NCBI GenBank assembly: GCA_903913865.1
Contig: CAIWMU010000111.1
Location: forward strand, 1-56,323
DNA length: 56,323 bases
Reading direction: 5' to 3'
Origin: an uncultured Verrucomicrobia subdivision 3 bacterium
GTDB lineage: Bacteria > Verrucomicrobiota > Verrucomicrobiia > Limisphaerales > UBA8199
A program made the position numbers and the translations under genes. Below are positions 2,096-28,708 of the stretch, one piece after another. The notes beneath the pieces were generated by a model. The model worked only from the letters and a program-made list of their open reading frames with translations. It did no database searches and was not told the DNA's origin. Position 1 is the stretch's first letter, and each line of letters begins with the position of its first letter.

Positions 2096-3106
2096 CTATG
2101 CCTCCCGCTCGTTACCCACCCGCACCTGGGAGACCTCGGATTTGATATAATGGAGCAACACCGGTGCAAGGATCATCCCGGAAATCCCGAGCAACCTCTC
2201 ACCCACCACCAGACCCAGGAGGGTCAGCCACAAGGGATTGCCAATGCGGTGCCCAATGATCTTGCTGTTGAGAAGATACTCAAGCTTGTGAATGACAACG
2301 AGGTAGGCCAGAGCCACCAGCGCGGTGCGGGGACTGACCGTCAACCCGATCCCCACGATGACGATATTGCTCACGATGTTCCCCATCACGGGAACAAGAC
2401 CGCATAGGAACGTGAGTCCCACCACAACGATCTTGTGCGGCATGCCGGCCGCCACAACGAAAACCGTTGTCAGGGCCGTGTTGATCCCGGAAATGATGAT
2501 CTGCGCCCCCATCACCGTTCTGAAGGATGCGAACAGTGCCCGGAAGCGTTGGAGACAGGCATCCCAGGTCGAGGCGTAGAGGTTGCGCTCAGGGAAGTTG
2601 CTCAGGGACTTGAGCTGGTAAACTGGATTGAGAAAGTAACCCATCGCCACAAGGACACCGGCACCCAGAAAGACAATCTCCCGGCCTGCACCCCGGGCCG
2701 CCCTGGCAAAATTACCCCAATCACCGGTCATTGACTCCAGAATCGCGGAGCGGAAACTTTCGTAATCCTTGAATGGCAGCTCGAACTGGTAACGCTCCGC
2801 CAGACTCTGGATCACCGGAAAAGCCTCGTCCGCAATCTGGGGCAGATCCAGCAGGGTGCGGCTGATGAAGAGCCAGAGGCCAAACAGAATTCCAATCGCA
2901 AAAACACCAAAAACCCCCACCGTGAACCAGCGGGCACGCGTGCGCCGGCCCTGGATCAATTCAAGTGCCAGGAAGGCGAAAAAGGCAGCCAGCAGCAGAG
3001 GCGTCATCCGCAACACACCCGTGAGCAGAAGCACCGATGCCATGAGAAAATAGGAGAGCCGCACGGGGCTGGATTTGATCTGTGAAAAAAGTCGGGTGTC
3101 GCTCAT
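2096..3106 (-). CDS. AI-2E family transporter-like membrane protein
   Basis: Polytopic inner-membrane protein of 336 residues in the AI-2E/PerM family (PF01594). Members include exporters and Na+/H+-type antiporters, and the substrate here is unknown. The sequence shows N-terminal hydrophobic helices, a central soluble stretch (about residues 75-135), then a membrane bundle. The family-typical Gly-Leu-(Val)-Pro-Val-x-Gly loop appears as CGLVPVMGNIVSN, with a C-terminal GNPLWLTLLGLVVGERLLG segment matching the conserved end of the family. It starts 8 bases after the WYL regulator stop on the same strand, so rho, the WYL gene and this gene are probably transcribed together. Confidence 0.85.
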   Translation of the reverse strand: MSDTRLFSQIKSSPVRLSYFLMASVLLLTGVLRMTPLLLAAFFAFLALELIQGRRTRARWFTVGVFGVFAIGILFGLWLFISRTLLDLPQIADEAFPVIQSLAERYQFELPFKDYESFRSAILESMTGDWGNFARAARGAGREIVFLGAGVLVAMGYFLNPVYQLKSLSNFPERNLYASTWDACLQRFRALFASFRTVMGAQIIISGINTALTTVFVVAAGMPHKIVVVGLTFLCGLVPVMGNIVSNIVIVGIGLTVSPRTALVALAYLVVIHKLEYLLNSKIIGHRIGNPLWLTLLGLVVGERLLGISGMILAPVLLHYIKSEVSQVRVGNEREA

Positions 3107-3114
3107 TCGAATTC

Positions 3115-4155
3115 CTATGGTGGGATTTCAACCCCGGATGTGTGCGCGGTCCGCAGCCGTTCGGCGGCACTCCGGATGGATGCCACCAACTCCGGCGGGC
3201 TCAACGCAAGGGCATCCCCACCCCAGCTCAGGACCCACCGTTCAACCTCGCGAAAACTGGACAACTGGAAACTCAGATCAACTCCGCCATCCTCCAGATC
3301 CACCAGCTTCTGTGAATCGTGCCACTTCTTCTCCCGGATCATGTCCGCCACCCTGGAGTCAAAACGGATCACCACATCGTAGAGAGCCTTCCCCGAATGC
3401 ACACCAAAGCTGTGGCGCAACCTCGACTCAAGTGAGAACTTCTTCGGACGGGGAAAAACCACGCCGGTGGGCTTCACACTTCTGATCCGGGTGGGAACAA
3501 ACGTGCGCATGTCCTGCCTCAGATGGTCGAACGCAAACAGGAACCACTCCCCGTTGATGTTGGCCAGATGGTATGGATCTATGGTCCGTTCCTCTGCCTT
3601 GGTCTGCCCTGGCTTGCGATATTCGATCGCCAGTTGCTGCCTCTGGGAGGTGGCACGCGCCACGAGATCAAAAATCTCGAGGTCCAAAATCGGCTCAGCC
3701 CGGGTGCTGAAAGAGATGGCCTGCTGCGCCTCGGAAAGATCAAGCGATATCGTCTCCGGCATGGACTGGGTCATCTTCTTGATCGCGCTCAGCAGGGGGC
3801 GCTCAAAACTCGTGCCACGGTATTGCTGGAGGGCCTTCTCCGCCAGAAACAGTGCGACCAGTTCCCCCTCGGAAATCTGGATCGTTGGAAAACTCCCCAC
3901 CTCCTCAGTGTAACAAAAACCGTTTCTGCTCCCATCCCATTCCAGGGGCAGTTCAAGACTCGAGCGCATGAACTCGATGTCCCGGTAAACCGACTTGGTG
4001 CTGATCTCAAACTCCCGCGCCAGACTTGATGCGTTCGGATAGGAGCCGGATTGCACCTCCTGATGGATGCGCATCATCCGGTGCAGCGGCGGCCTCGATC
4101 GCGGTTCAGAGCGACCGGGCCGTGCGGATGATTTTTTTTCAGGCCTTGCCTTCAA
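3115..4155 (-). CDS. WYL-domain transcriptional regulator (HTH + WYL)
   Basis: DNA-binding regulator with an N-terminal winged helix (SSLAREFEISTKSVYRDIEFM is the recognition part) followed by a WYL ligand-sensing domain and the WCX C-terminal extension (RLRHSFGVHSGKALYDVV and later). The start is uncertain. The open frame reaches a TTG at 4203 directly after the rho stop codon. I prefer the TTG at 4155 because a GGGGGA Shine-Dalgarno sequence lies about six bases upstream. An ATG at 4077 would cut into the conserved RPPLHRM segment seen before the HTH in related proteins. Such regulators often respond to nucleic-acid ligands or DNA damage, but the target here cannot be inferred. Confidence 0.82.
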   Translation of the reverse strand: MKARPEKKSSARPGRSEPRSRPPLHRMMRIHQEVQSGSYPNASSLAREFEISTKSVYRDIEFMRSSLELPLEWDGSRNGFCYTEEVGSFPTIQISEGELVALFLAEKALQQYRGTSFERPLLSAIKKMTQSMPETISLDLSEAQQAISFSTRAEPILDLEIFDLVARATSQRQQLAIEYRKPGQTKAEERTIDPYHLANINGEWFLFAFDHLRQDMRTFVPTRIRSVKPTGVVFPRPKKFSLESRLRHSFGVHSGKALYDVVIRFDSRVADMIREKKWHDSQKLVDLEDGGVDLSFQLSSFREVERWVLSWGGDALALSPPELVASIRSAAERLRTAHTSGVEIPP

Positions 4156-15747: not shown

Positions 15748-17298
15748 ATGAAACTGTTATCCATTAGCCTCAGCATCCTCGCCATCCTCGGTGGTGGCAA
15801 CAGCCAGAGCCTGGCCGATACAAACACAGGCTTGATTGCCAGTTATCCATTCTCGGGAAATGCCAATGACTGCGTCGGCACGAACCACGGCACAGCCTAC
15901 CACACGACCCTCGTGCCGGATCGGTTCGGCAGGACCAACGGTGCCTACGATTTCAACGGGACCTCATCCTACATCGCACTGGAGCACTTTGACTTAAAAA
16001 CCATGGGGGATCTGACCTTTTCCGTCTGGGTGAAACCGGTGGACGGGGGCATGATCTATTATCAGGGAACCGGTGGAGATGTCTGGTTCAGCGTCGGTGC
16101 AGATGTGGCTGATTTTTCCGTTCATCTCGAGGATGGCACCTGGTGTGGCGGAGAGATTGCTATTTCTCTCCCCACAAATCGCTTCTTCAATCTCTGCGGG
16201 GTGTTCCAAAAGGGGAACAAAGTGGAACTCTGGGTGGATGGATCGCTGGTGAGCAGCAGCAATGCACCCGACCTTGCTCTTTTTGAGCCAGCATACGGAC
16301 ACCTTCACGCCAATCTTGGGGTCCTACAGTCTCCGGTTAATGGATTTCTTCGCTCCTCCTTCTTTCACGGGGCCATTGACGAGTTTCGCGTCTACAACCG
16401 GGCGCTCGCTGCGGCGGACATTCTGGAACTTCAGGACATCCCTCCATCCTACGACACGAACACGGCCCTCATAGCCTCCTACACATTCTCGGGAAATGCC
16501 AATGACAGCGTCGGCACCAACCACGGCACAGCCTACCACACGACCCTGGTGCCGGATCGGTTCGGCAGGCCCAATAGTGCCTACGATTTCAACGGAACCT
16601 CATCCTACATTGCACTCGAGCACTTTGACCTGAAAACCCTCGGGGATCTGACCTTCTCCGTCTGGGTGAAACCGGTGGACGGGGGCATGATTTATTATCA
16701 GGGAACCGGTGGTGATGTCTGGTTCAGCGTCGGTGTTGATGTGGCTGATTTTTCCGTTCATCTCGAGGATGGCACCTGGTGTGGCGGAGAGATTCCGATT
16801 TCCCTACCCACAAATCGCTTCTTCAATCTCTGCGGTGTGTTCCAAAAGGGGAATAAAGTGGAACTCTGGGTGGATGGATCGCTGGTGAGCAGTTGCAATG
16901 CACCCGACCTTTCCCTTTTTGAGCCAGCATACGGACATCTTCACGCCAATCTTGGGGTCCTGCAGTCTCCTGTTAATGGATTTCTGCGCTCGTCCTTCTT
17001 TCACGGGGCCATTGACGACCTCCGCATATACAACCGCGCACTCTCCCCTGAGGACATCCAACGCCTTCAGGACGTCCCCACCGCCGTGGCGCTGAGCCAG
17101 GGAACCCAGCTCCCTGCGACCGGGTTTAGTGTTCTGGTGAGCGGCCAACCGGGGTCAGTTTACTGCCTGCAGGCCACGACATCCCTAAGTTCTGGAAATT
17201 GGGTAAACATCACAACCAATACCGCCCCTTTCACATTCCTGGACACCAGTGCCACAAACACAACCCACAGATTCTACCGGGCCGTGTCCATGCCTTGA
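15748..17298 (+). CDS. Secreted protein with two tandem LamG/ConA-like domains
   Basis: Paralogue of the three-module protein upstream, 516 residues. It has a signal peptide (1-23), then two LamG modules of 212 residues starting at Asp 24 and Asp 236, then the same C-terminal module (VYCLQATTSLSSGNWVNITT ... HRFYRAVSMP). Both modules have EHFDLKT where the upstream protein has Q/HNFDFKT, one residue shorter. Identical flanking architecture and the pckG vestige upstream show that the gene arose by duplication of a pckG-tail/LamG block. The function is not known; glycan binding or cell-surface adhesion is inferred from LamG only. Confidence 0.84.
   Translation: MKLLSISLSILAILGGGNSQSLADTNTGLIASYPFSGNANDCVGTNHGTAYHTTLVPDRFGRTNGAYDFNGTSSYIALEHFDLKTMGDLTFSVWVKPVDGGMIYYQGTGGDVWFSVGADVADFSVHLEDGTWCGGEIAISLPTNRFFNLCGVFQKGNKVELWVDGSLVSSSNAPDLALFEPAYGHLHANLGVLQSPVNGFLRSSFFHGAIDEFRVYNRALAAADILELQDIPPSYDTNTALIASYTFSGNANDSVGTNHGTAYHTTLVPDRFGRPNSAYDFNGTSSYIALEHFDLKTLGDLTFSVWVKPVDGGMIYYQGTGGDVWFSVGVDVADFSVHLEDGTWCGGEIPISLPTNRFFNLCGVFQKGNKVELWVDGSLVSSCNAPDLSLFEPAYGHLHANLGVLQSPVNGFLRSSFFHGAIDDLRIYNRALSPEDIQRLQDVPTAVALSQGTQLPATGFSVLVSGQPGSVYCLQATTSLSSGNWVNITTNTAPFTFLDTSATNTTHRFYRAVSMP
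15817..16452 (+). repeat. LamG module A of second paralogue (212 codons)
   Basis: In-frame 636-base unit, near-identical to the next unit, including the segment encoding DLKT(M/L)GDLTFSVWVKPVDGG. Confidence 0.8.
16453..17088 (+). repeat. LamG module B of second paralogue (212 codons)
   Basis: Second 636-base unit, joined directly to the C-terminal FYR-type module. It differs from module A by few substitutions. Confidence 0.8.
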
Positions 17299-17835: not shown

Positions 17836-20169
17836 ATGTTTAAGCTTACCAATAGGATTGCCTGCATCCGGGGCGTGATCCATGGATTGCCCGCCACCCT
17901 GGCGGTTGCGATCACGGTGACCGCTCAAGCCCTGCCCTGCACGTTACAAAATCCGAGTCTGAAGCTCCAATTCGAGCCACAGACAGGCCAACTCATCAGT
18001 TGCACGGACCTCCGCTCGCAGTGGAACCACATTAAGTCCCCCCCTGCGCCGACCGGCCTTTGGGAGCTGAACTTCACATGTTCTGGAAAGACCAACAAGC
18101 TGGAACCAGCAGCGGCTGCAAGTTTTCGGTTTGAGCCGGTAACGGCCTCCCGTGCCCTCCTGCATTGGTCCGGTTTTACACTTCCCGGAGCCGAAGCACT
18201 GGAAGTGACCGCCTCAGTCGCTCTTGATGCCGATGGCGCCTCCAGTTCCTGGGGGCTGCAGGTCTCGGCCATACCTGGCCTGCATCTGGACCGGATCCAT
18301 TACCCTCGTATTCCCGGCATTCGTTCCCAGCCAGACGAGCGGCTGGCTGTCCCTCTCTGGATGGGGCAGCTAAACCGCAATCCGAGAAAACTCCTCGCCG
18401 GATCCAAACCAATCCACCTTGAGTGGGAGTATCCCGGGCTGACATCCCTCCAGTGCATTGCCTACTACCGGGAACAGGGTCCGGGGTTTTTCCTCTCCAG
18501 CAACGATACGAACGGCTACAGGAAGAGCTTCCGCTTTTCCGGAAACACGAATGGTCAGCTGTTTTGCGAGTGGCAGCACCTGCCTGAGCATCGCACCGGT
18601 GAGGACTACACACTCCCCTACAGCGCAGTGCTGAGCACGTTCAACGGCGACTGGTTCACCGCTGCCGGGCAATACCGGACCTGGGCCACCAACCAGTTCT
18701 GGGCACAGCAAAGCCGCCTGAAGACTTCGGCATCCCCACCCTGGGTGACCAATACCGCCCTTTGGATCTGGAACCGTGGACGATCCCCCGGCGTGATCGC
18801 TCCCGCGCTCGCACTCCGGCGGCAACTGGGGCTGCCGGTGGGCATCTTCTGGCATTGGTGGCATGGGTGTGCCTATGACACCGGATTTCCTGACTATTTA
18901 CCCCCGCGGGAGGGCGATGAACCCTTCAGGAAAGCGCTGGATCAGGCACATGATCAGGACCTCCACGCAATTGTTTACATGAACCAGCGACTCTGGGGAA
19001 TGACCACACGCAGCTGGGAATTGGAGGGGGCGGCCCGTTACGCCGTGAAGGCGGCAGACGGCCGTATCAGGCCCGAAGTTTACAACACCTTCACAAAGCT
19101 ACCCTGCGCCTCCATGTGCATGGGCACGCCGTTCTGGCGAAACAAATATGCCTCCCTCGCGGAGGATGCGTTCAAGGAACTCGGTGTGGACGGCATTTAC
19201 ATGGATCAGGCCTGCAGTAGCATGGCCTGCTTCGACCCTGACCATGGGCATCCCATCGGCGGCGGACGCTATTGGGTCGATGGGTTCAAAACCCTCTCGG
19301 CGGACCTGCGCGCCCGATGTGCCAAACCAGCCCCGATCGTGCTCGCAGGGGAGGGATGCAGCGAGGGTTGGCTCCCCTATCTCGACCTGATGCTCTCACT
19401 GCAGGTCAGCAAGGAGCGCTACACAAATCCCCGGGATGGCTGGGAGCCGATCCCGTTTTTTCAAGCCGTTTACCATCCCTACAGTATTCTCTACGGCAAC
19501 TACTCATCCCTGACACTTCCACCCTACGATGACCTCTGGCCATCTGCCACCGCCCCCAAAAACAGTCTCGAACTTCTCGACCGCAAATTTTCACGGCAAT
19601 TCATGATGGAGCAGGCCCGATCTTTCCTCTGGGGCCAGCAACCCGCCATCGCCAACTTCCTGCCCAACCAACTCACCGAACGCCGGAGGGAAATCAACTA
19701 CGTCCTCCGCCTCGCCCGCATCCGGGCGCGCCATCTGGATTACCTCCTGAACGGCACCCTGCTCCGCCAGCCTGAGTTCGATGTCGAGTCAGCACGGTTT
19801 GGCAGCCCGGGAAGCAACCCCGGCCGATCTGTCGCAAAAACAGTGCGCCTGCCGTTGTCGCGTCTTTCCATCTACGCAGGTCAGCAGGGAACGCTGTCCG
19901 AATTTGAGGGATCCACCCCCACAGTGCTGGGTGCGGCATGGCTCGACCTCCGGGGCAATGTGGGCCTCTTTTACGCAAACCTGGGCGATTCCCCCCTGAC
20001 ACTGACACAAGTTGTGAATCAACCCGGCCATCCGCTGCCAAACCAGGGCCGCATTTTTGATTCGACCGAACCCAGGAAGCGTTTGATCGGCAGGTTCTCC
20101 CATGATCGCCCCCTCCTGCACATCACGATTCCCCCCGGGGATGTGCGGGTCATTGAACTGACGAACTGA
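17836..20169 (+). CDS. Secreted DUF6259-type putative glycoside hydrolase
   Basis: Large exported protein of 777 residues. The N-terminus (about 1-35) is a signal peptide ending near TAQALPC. An N-terminal beta-sandwich (about 40-280) precedes a TIM-barrel-like catalytic half. The barrel shows GLPVGIFWHWWHGCAYDTGFPDY, HAIVYMNQRLWG, a nucleophile-like Asp in LGVDGIYMDQACSSMACFD, and an acid-like position in VLAGEGCSEGWLPYLD. A C-terminal beta domain follows. This layout matches DUF6259 proteins, which I recall as distantly related to alpha-galactosidase/GH101-like hydrolases; catalytic residue roles are inference. It follows the LamG genes on the same strand but after a terminator, so it is likely separately expressed. 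Confidence 0.72.
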   Translation: MFKLTNRIACIRGVIHGLPATLAVAITVTAQALPCTLQNPSLKLQFEPQTGQLISCTDLRSQWNHIKSPPAPTGLWELNFTCSGKTNKLEPAAAASFRFEPVTASRALLHWSGFTLPGAEALEVTASVALDADGASSSWGLQVSAIPGLHLDRIHYPRIPGIRSQPDERLAVPLWMGQLNRNPRKLLAGSKPIHLEWEYPGLTSLQCIAYYREQGPGFFLSSNDTNGYRKSFRFSGNTNGQLFCEWQHLPEHRTGEDYTLPYSAVLSTFNGDWFTAAGQYRTWATNQFWAQQSRLKTSASPPWVTNTALWIWNRGRSPGVIAPALALRRQLGLPVGIFWHWWHGCAYDTGFPDYLPPREGDEPFRKALDQAHDQDLHAIVYMNQRLWGMTTRSWELEGAARYAVKAADGRIRPEVYNTFTKLPCASMCMGTPFWRNKYASLAEDAFKELGVDGIYMDQACSSMACFDPDHGHPIGGGRYWVDGFKTLSADLRARCAKPAPIVLAGEGCSEGWLPYLDLMLSLQVSKERYTNPRDGWEPIPFFQAVYHPYSILYGNYSSLTLPPYDDLWPSATAPKNSLELLDRKFSRQFMMEQARSFLWGQQPAIANFLPNQLTERRREINYVLRLARIRARHLDYLLNGTLLRQPEFDVESARFGSPGSNPGRSVAKTVRLPLSRLSIYAGQQGTLSEFEGSTPTVLGAAWLDLRGNVGLFYANLGDSPLTLTQVVNQPGHPLPNQGRIFDSTEPRKRLIGRFSHDRPLLHITIPPGDVRVIELTN

Positions 20170-20339
20170 GATTTCCAACCCGCGCCAAACCTTACATCAG
20201 AATGCAAGTGGTTGGTTGACAGGGTTCCTGGACGCAATTCCTGCCGGGCGGAAGAATATCTCACTCAAGCTGGAAAAATATTTGAACAAAACCGGGAGCA
20301 TCCAGTCCAATCATCATAAGCGAATGGTTTCGCTGTCCG

Positions 20340-20480
20340 TTTAGGGTTAGTATAGAGGTTTTGCTTGTGGTGCAGTTCGGGCAGCGCAAAAATAGTTGGC
20401 TGCACTACCCTTCTGAGCGCCTGGGTGAAGGCGTCCAAACCTCGTCGCCACTAAGGGCCGGATTTAATCCGGCTCTTTGT
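20340..20480 (+). ncRNA. Possible structured RNA with intrinsic terminator, upstream of accA
   Basis: The gap between the glycosidase and accA contains nested pairings. One is GAGGTTT near 20355 with AAACCTC near 20436. A second arm is GTGCAG with CTGCAC (about 20371-20404), and a third is CGCCT with AGGCG (about 20419-20432). A 10-bp hairpin at 20454-20463/20467-20476, with one G-U pair and a TTA loop, is followed by TTT. A three-way junction plus terminator would fit a small RNA or an accA attenuator. It does not match the consensus of 6S, SRP or tmRNA, or of any riboswitch I know, so the class is unknown and the call is tentative. Confidence 0.4.
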
Positions 20481-20543
20481 CTGTACACTTAGCGTCCCAA
20501 AACGGCGTTGCCTCAACACCCCCTTGCGGATAGTCTGTCCGGG

Positions 20544-21533
20544 ATGAAACATCAACTCGACTTTGAGAAGCCGATTGCTGACCTCCAGCACAAGCTCGAG
20601 GAGTTGAAAAAGCACCCGGAGACACACTCTCTGGGAATCAGCTTCGAGGAAGAGGTTTCCCTGATCGAAAAAAAGATCGAGGAAACCAGACGCCAGATAT
20701 TTTTGAACCTGAGCGCATGGGACCGCATTAAGATCGCGCGGCATCCCAAGCGCCCCTTTACTCTGGACTACATCGATCTGGCATTCACAGGCTTCTCCGA
20801 ACTCCACGGAGACCGCCTGTTTGCAGAGGACAGGGCGATCGTGGGCGGTTTTGCCACTATCGGGACACACAAAGTCATGGTCATCGGCACCCAAAAGGGT
20901 CGCGATACCAAGGAGAACATTCTGCGGAATTTCGGCTCAGCCCATCCCGAGGGCTATCGCAAGGCGCTCCGACTCATGAAATTGGCCGACAAGTTCGGCC
21001 TGCCCATCATCACGATCATAGACACCGCCGGCGCCTACCCGGGCATCGGGGCCGAGGAGCGGCATATCGCTGAGGCAATCGCTGTGAACCTCCGGGAGAT
21101 GATGCTTCTGGAAGTTCCTGTCATAGCCGTGGTCATTGGGGAAGGCGGTTCTGGAGGGGCGCTCGGCATCGGTGTGGCCGACCGGGTCTTGATTCTCGAA
21201 AACGCCTACTACTCCGTGATCAGTCCTGAAGGTTGTGCAGCCATCCTGTGGAAGGACCGCGCTGCTGCGTCAAAGGCGGCGGAGGCCCTGAAGATCACAG
21301 CGCGCCAACTCGTCGAGTTGAAGCTGGTGGACGAGGTCATCCCGGAACCTCTCGGAGGGGCACACGTCGACAAGAATGCGGCGGCACACAGCTTCCAGAC
21401 GGTCGTGCTCCAACATCTGGAGACCCTGAAGGCACTTTCCCCACGGGAGCGGATGAAGAAACGCTACGAGAAGTTCAGGGCATTTGGCCATTTTACTGAA
21501 AAGATCACAACCGAAGCCCCTGCGAAGGCCTGA
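20544..21533 (+). CDS. accA: Acetyl-CoA carboxylase carboxyltransferase subunit alpha
   Basis: Alpha half of the carboxyltransferase that, with AccD, moves the carboxyl group from biotin carrier protein to acetyl-CoA, giving malonyl-CoA for fatty-acid synthesis. The 329-residue protein starts MKHQLDFEKPIADLQHKLEEL, the family N-terminus. A longer frame beginning with TTG at 20508 is less likely. Crotonase-fold motifs are visible: LHGDRLFAEDRAIVGGFA, PIITIIDTAGAYPGIGAEERHIAEAIA, IGEGGSGGALGIGVAD and SPEGCAAILWKD. No accD is adjacent. manA follows 47 bases after the stop. Confidence 0.97.
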   Translation: MKHQLDFEKPIADLQHKLEELKKHPETHSLGISFEEEVSLIEKKIEETRRQIFLNLSAWDRIKIARHPKRPFTLDYIDLAFTGFSELHGDRLFAEDRAIVGGFATIGTHKVMVIGTQKGRDTKENILRNFGSAHPEGYRKALRLMKLADKFGLPIITIIDTAGAYPGIGAEERHIAEAIAVNLREMMLLEVPVIAVVIGEGGSGGALGIGVADRVLILENAYYSVISPEGCAAILWKDRAAASKAAEALKITARQLVELKLVDEVIPEPLGGAHVDKNAAAHSFQTVVLQHLETLKALSPRERMKKRYEKFRAFGHFTEKITTEAPAKA

Positions 21534-28135: not shown

Positions 28136-28379
28136 ACGCTCAACCTCTTCGATCTTGGCCTCATGCAGCGAACAGTAGAACGATCCGGACGGGGAGTAAA
28201 GATCAGCCTGACAGCCCCAAACCGGGCTCACGACAGTCCGGGATCCTGACCGCCCATCCTCACCCTCCAAAAAACTCCAGACCCCGGCTCGGTTTATTCT
28301 TGGCAATCCCCGGCATCGGGGCTAGGTATGTGGCGTTCTTTGAGAGAGGCGGGTCCAGAACACCCGCAAACACCATGGA
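28136..28379. other. Divergent intergenic region before the cobalamin riboswitch
   Basis: This gap separates the minus-strand ABC operon from the plus-strand riboswitch transcript and should contain both promoters. A small CCCCG/CGGGG hairpin is near 28306-28320 and a GCGGGT/ACCCGC pairing lies at about 28349-28366, just before the aptamer. No clear promoter hexamers are recognised. Confidence 0.4.
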
Positions 28380-28512
28380 CAAGGTTTAGGGAACCCCGTG
28401 CAAATCGGGGACGGTAGCGCCACTGTAACGGGTGACAAGCTCCCAAGGGCCACTGGCTAAAAGCCGGGAAGGCGGGAGTGAGGTTTGAGCCCGAAGTCAG
28501 GATATCTTCTTG
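28380..28512 (+). promoter_or_regulatory. Cobalamin (B12) riboswitch aptamer
   Basis: The sequence carries the ordered core of the AdoCbl/B12 class. GGGAACCCCGTGCAAATCGGG is followed by a CGGTAGC linker, the invariant GCCACTGTAACGGG (28419 onward), the GCCGGGAAGGC arm at 28463-28473, and the closing AGTCAGGATA box at 28495-28504. P1 can form between the AAGG near 28381 and the CTT/TTG bases after 28504. Binding of a cobalamin normally shuts off downstream expression. It is on the plus strand, so it controls the secreted-protein/pseudopilin operon and not the divergent ABC transporter. The ligand form (adenosyl or methyl/aquo) cannot be told from sequence. Confidence 0.9.
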
Positions 28513-28708
28513 CCCATGCTCGTCCTGGCACCCGCCGGATGCAATTCAGCGGGGCCAACTTCTCCGCCAAGAGAAGGATGAGGCCAGCCCGCCCGCTGTT
28601 CGGGATGGGATTCGATGAACGTTTTCGTTCTATGTCTGGTCGGTAACTGTGGCTTTTTCAGCCGGAGATCCCCATTCCCCGGAAACCTGGAAGGGTTTGA
28701 GTTCCGTC

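Follow-up and report, generated by a model that had tools for sequence, protein, structure and literature searches.

The window considered here, that is, the whole analysed stretch of 56,323 nucleotides, contains on its forward strand a gap of 374 bases between an open reading frame ending at position 20169 and the ATG of accA at position 20544, just as the initial annotation had counted. The downstream gene, accA (20544–21533, +), was identified by the Pfam ACCA domain (466.5 bits). The upstream frame (17836–20169, +) encodes a 777-aa DUF6259 protein and occupies the place that zwf and pgl hold in relatives; at 15748–17298 (+), a 516-aa protein consists, by eye, of two nearly identical halves of ~230 residues. 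The gap holds an RNA gene (20317–20481, +), which lies on the same strand as accA, ends before it and is present as a single copy in the window's genome. Its predicted start at 20317 is derived from a promoter-like element and its 3′ end from a terminator-like hairpin, giving a putative length of ~165 nt; matches in covariance-model searches span 20325–20481. The extent previously proposed for the candidate RNA, 20340–20480, starts too late: the RNA begins before 20340, because this position falls just past the first strand of a pseudoknot.

The predicted core of the RNA is built of five helices, with two pseudoknots interlocked around the closing stem. This stem, helix b, pairs GAGGTTT (20355–20361) with AAACCTC (20437–20443) and encloses two arms, helix c (20367–20375 with 20400–20408) and helix d (20417–20421 with 20430–20434). 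A hairpin (20455–20475) follows, with TTT directly after it; hairpin and T run together make up the terminator-like element (20455–20481). Stem, arms and hairpin had all been described in the initial annotation and are present, but two helices of 9 and 5 pairs were overlooked. The longer one, helix a (20331–20339 with 20378–20386), crosses helices b and c, whereas the shorter one, helix e (20424–20428 with 20445–20449), has its 5′ strand within the loop of helix d and crosses d and b. The crossing of the closing stem by a and by e gives the RNA two pseudoknots, numbered 1 (helix a) and 2 (helix e). The strands, all on the + strand and with the 3′ strand of each helix placed from the alignment, are arranged as a b c a′ c′ d e d′ b′ e′, with the hairpin last. 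Three unpaired strands are conserved, namely, the joining strand AGGGTTAGTATA (20343–20354, +; consensus AGGGUUGGCAGA), the loop AGTTG (20394–20398, +) and the joining strand TCTGA (20412–20416, +). Identity of at least 90% is found at 11 of the 12 positions of AGGGUUGGCAGA and at each position of the other two, with AGUUG positions identical in 90–96 and UCUGA positions in 95–98 of 99 sequences.

Folding energy by itself provides moderate evidence for the structure (−51.9 kcal/mol, z = −2.47; 2 of 200 shuffles were equally good) and would be weak if taken alone; the decisive evidence is comparative. Among the 20 homologues collected first, 98.3% of 879 pair cells are paired and 20 of 44 pairs have changed on both sides. 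In an alignment of 101 copies (99 distinct), drawn from 100 of the loci, which were picked for diversity, standard pairs fill 97.7% of the 4331 cells, and both-sided changes occur at 38 of 44 pairs, amounting to 598 doubly changed cells. None of 500 shuffles matches any covariation measure in this alignment, and structures slid by 1–3 columns are merely 38–50% paired. A copy cut by a contig end (L018) was left out of alignment A2. The proportion of paired cells is 97.2% in helix a, 93.9% in b, 99.8% in c, 98.6% in d, 99.8% in e and 97.4% in the hairpin. Pairs changed on both sides number 8 of 9 in helix a, 7 of 7 in b, 8 of 9 in c, 4 of 5 in e and 9 of 9 in the hairpin, while helix d is nearly invariant. 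Part of the near invariance seen in helices d and e stems from selection, because about half of the alignment rows come from a pattern scan whose pattern itself requires GTGA and GCGT. Helices a and e covary strongly though both are absent from the search model that built the alignment. Pair columns contain 336 G–U cells versus 8 A–C cells and, therefore, the transcribed strand is the + strand. The covariance check proposed in the initial annotation was passed with the 20-homologue as well as the 101-copy alignment and, judged from these alignments, the covariation is as clear as in established RNA families.

Upstream of the RNA lies a putative promoter, which would be its own. It consists of a −35-like element, TTGAAC (20282–20287, +), recognized as a conserved upstream motif, and a −10-like element, GTCCAA (20305–20310, +), whose family consensus, RTCTNA, emerged from a motif search without a preset pattern. 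Exact TTGAAC occurs at most 80 nt upstream of the RNA in 54 of 62 loci, versus 153 of 11619 random flank windows (1.3%), the latter being 41 nt long, about half the span searched at the loci. Two of the 54 occurrences (L046 and L066) are found at unlikely places. RTCTNA was recovered by the free search in 85 distinct spacers, with TC in 83 of them and a distance of 17 or 18 nt past TTGAAC in 81; the motif reaches 6.4 bits, versus 2.8–2.9 bits in six shuffled sets. A separate motif alignment was anchored on GAAC, with 20 of the 101 rows lacking the anchor or having too short a flank; because of the anchoring, it is no evidence for GAAC itself. RTCTNA differs from TATAAT, and the conserved TTGAAC-N17/18-RTCTNA, while promoter-like, is unlike the standard sigma-70 promoter; a simple sigma-70 scan detected no site in the window. 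The combination of GAAC and GTCTNA resembles the promoters of ECF sigma factors, suggesting that the RNA is perhaps driven by an alternative sigma factor. A search for a regulon sharing the promoter motif yielded 33 matches in 15 genomes versus 16 in the reversed control, with no clear regulon, and the first motif search, in two genomes, gave 11 and 8 matches, near the reversed control, followed by genes that form no pattern.

At the 3′ end, the T run of the window is weak (TTTGTC; the best 8-nt stretch holds 5 T), and a simple terminator scan found no site in the window. Many families have a good T run, but it is short in the window and in several of its near relatives, and many copies in the window's own family have it short or broken. 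Its strength after the hairpin is similar with and without accA downstream, in a count that took in two weak duplicate rows (L004 and L082) beyond the 62 loci. Given the short or broken T run in the window's family, some read-through past the hairpin into accA is possible.

No family of Rfam 15 reaches its gathering score over this RNA in the window, and the region 20160–20600 has no Rfam match up to an E-value of 10. Three homologues (L068, L079 and L007) yielded scattered matches far under the cut-off, such as ar35 with 24.2 bits versus 45. The Rfam scan suggested earlier thus bears out, for the window and three homologues, the claim that the sequence fits no known RNA family and, by this measure, the RNA is a novel structured RNA. 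Elsewhere in the window, the scan identified a cobalamin riboswitch (28364–28527, +; 82.9 bits). No description of the RNA was found in the open-licence literature, in which small RNAs of Verrucomicrobiota appear to be little studied; a 2017 survey reportedly comprised 224 candidate RNAs.

Several known RNAs resemble it in part. 6S RNA (RF00013) is likewise stand-alone, single-copy and strongly structured, at 150–190 nt. However, 6S RNA is one long bulged hairpin, whereas the RNA described here has two interlocked pseudoknots, and the window's genome has a separate 6S RNA. With RybB and MicA it shares an ECF-like promoter pair and an intrinsic terminator, but these sigma-E-dependent RNAs are short, largely unstructured antisense RNAs, unlike the knotted core found here. 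HDV-like ribozymes, like this RNA, fold compactly into a double pseudoknot and have joining strands that are conserved. The two differ in that the 3′ strand of helix a sits between both strands of helix c, and the arrangement a b c a′ c′ d e d′ b′ e′ departs from that of HDV; for an HDV-like ribozyme, there was also no Rfam match and no sign of a cleavage site. Acido-Lenti-1 (RF01687) and Acido-1 (RF01686) are taxon-bound conserved structured RNAs that a table marks as not cis-regulatory (PMC2864571). They too are orphan, lineage-bound RNAs, but they belong to another order, have another architecture and do not match here at gathering cut-offs.

A blastn search with 161 bases of the RNA region, run on 40 relatives (own genome counted), recovered a single copy in each of 21, and covariance model R1 found the RNA in 53 of 116 genomes of Limisphaerales (Verrucomicrobia subdivision 3). 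A pattern scan of named genomes returned at least 117 stretches; among the matches listed were 80 loci, 77 of which contain model matches. Pattern matches from Caballeronia, Micromonospora and Desulfomicrobiaceae among the 80 loci listed are chance, since they have no model match. Records carrying the RNA are labelled Limisphaerales, Pedosphaera, Limisphaera or Verrucomicrobia subdivision 3. Three MAGs labelled Patescibacteria (L137), Methylacidimicrobium (L100) and Akkermansia (L141) carry the Limisphaerales RNA as well; their contigs are probably misbinned or mislabelled. Under strict filters, searches of the phylum identified 1 of 288 genomes with R1 and 1 of 387 with R2, in each case the window's own, and the R2 search of the class identified 29 of 286 genomes, every one in Limisphaerales. 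Distant relatives could be missed, because these searches scored just 7–10 candidates per genome with strict filters; the E-values are rough, the models having been calibrated short. The surroundings of pgl were fetched for 22 genomes of the order, 21 of which had no match in the blastn, R1 and R2 searches and one of which (G355) had a single weak match. Twenty of the 22 had pgl, and the unfiltered model gave nothing convincing (best 13.0 bits). In L230, from the same order, pgl directly precedes an accA-like gene, by eye, with no RNA between them. L107 has the RNA gene twice in tandem (2745–3141, −), and both copies possess a promoter-like pair and a terminator-like hairpin of their own. Neither the phage nor the plasmid collection had a match to the RNA, and a phage or plasmid origin was rejected; three viral contigs fit a short pattern, but they are chance matches, since their model scores are at most 13.7 bits.

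Gene neighbourhoods were compared at 62 loci from 60 genomes. accA is found downstream of the RNA in 34 of them, which is more than a random neighbour would be. Upstream, pgl is present in 36 loci, zwf in 31, and either or both in 40; 15 loci have none of the three genes nearby. Since the flanks examined span just 0.6–3 kb, these counts are lower bounds, and the gene names were Pfam-confirmed on one example each. In four loci without accA, the RNA faces Pfam-confirmed convergent genes, for an FAA hydrolase (L050), a histidyl-tRNA synthetase-like protein (L069), PEP carboxykinase (L085) and an FAD-binding protein (L096). Across the 62 loci, the neighbours vary while the RNA stays. zwf and pgl serve NADPH supply and accA serves fatty-acid synthesis; the usual site between them is most likely an inherited neighbourhood and at most a functional hint.

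Taken together, covariation, promoter-like and terminator-like elements of its own and changing neighbours make it likely that this is a stand-alone gene with a predicted promoter and transcript. We consider it probable that the gene encodes a noncoding, folded RNA of ~165 nt. Such an RNA would be transcribed alone, perhaps by means of an alternative sigma factor, and would act, free and folded, at a distance from its gene. The conserved unpaired strands AGGGUUGGCAGA, AGUUG and UCUGA would pack into one site that binds a protein or a small molecule, as in 6S- and SRP-type RNAs, with no pairing to mRNAs; this binding role is a guess. The initial annotation had offered two readings, a stand-alone small RNA, which we favour, and an attenuator of malonyl-CoA synthesis, which we do not. 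The latter would be a cis-acting leader, either a riboswitch or an attenuator, whose knotted core senses a signal and gates transcription past the hairpin into accA. Its appeal lies in the terminator-like hairpin directly after the core, in the weak T run of the window and in accA following on the same strand in 34 loci. However, 28 of 62 loci have no downstream accA (some flanks are just 1.5 kb or cut), so that the constant position expected of a riboswitch or attenuator fails, several copies face convergent genes, and the T run is of similar strength whether or not accA follows. Nor was an alternative antiterminator pairing found: core and terminator arms show no added complementarity (mean z of 0.41 in 33 sequences and 0.18 in 34, with a single value below −2 in all). 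The presence of accA in just 34 loci, the convergent genes and the missing antiterminator all point to a stand-alone gene, and the tandem copies of L107 were counted in the same direction. A leader of accA is thus unlikely as a general explanation, and a cis role within the window's own family has a similarly small chance.

A stand-alone RNA could also act by pairing with mRNAs, as sigma-E small RNAs of enterobacteria do, and the resemblance of GAAC-N17/18-RTCTNA to ECF promoters would fit such an antisense-type regulator under an alternative sigma factor. We regard this as improbable, since the conserved helices and both pseudoknots lock most of the RNA and the conserved unpaired strands lie inside the core. 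Moreover, no motif regulon was seen, and among mRNAs, of which the start regions of accA were examined, the RNA gave no signal of duplex formation (34 loci, mean z 0.15). A single copy of ~165 nt conserved across the order would equally suit a divergent housekeeping RNA, but the window's genome holds all four candidates elsewhere above cut-off, namely, 6S RNA at G000:C213, SRP RNA (RF00169) at G000:C79, tmRNA (RF00023) at G000:C212 and RNase P RNA (RF00010) at G000:C200. None of them matches at the RNA gene: 6S RNA is absent there at gathering scores and, within 20160–20600, up to an E-value of 10, and no tmRNA match exceeds the cut-off. This explanation is therefore highly improbable.

A bolder reading would see in this RNA a new, order-wide class whose two interlocked pseudoknots form a core of an undescribed type and whose gene stands by itself, controlled by an alternative sigma factor; the RNA would be catalytic, sense a ligand or control a protein. 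We advance this tentatively and with more doubt than assent. Given its clear covariation, the invariant joining strands of its knotted core and the unusual type of its putative promoter, the RNA offers biochemists a defined target in an order of soil and water bacteria that is common but hard to grow; its entry in RNA libraries would annotate a gene that is now blank in many genomes. Two genomes that hold a standard copy also carry a second, divergent one (L080:3001–3139, −, and L081:2379–2540, +; 45.7 and 37.5 bits with R1, respectively). The CUGAGCG segment differs in these second copies, suggesting that an older sister family of the RNA may exist.
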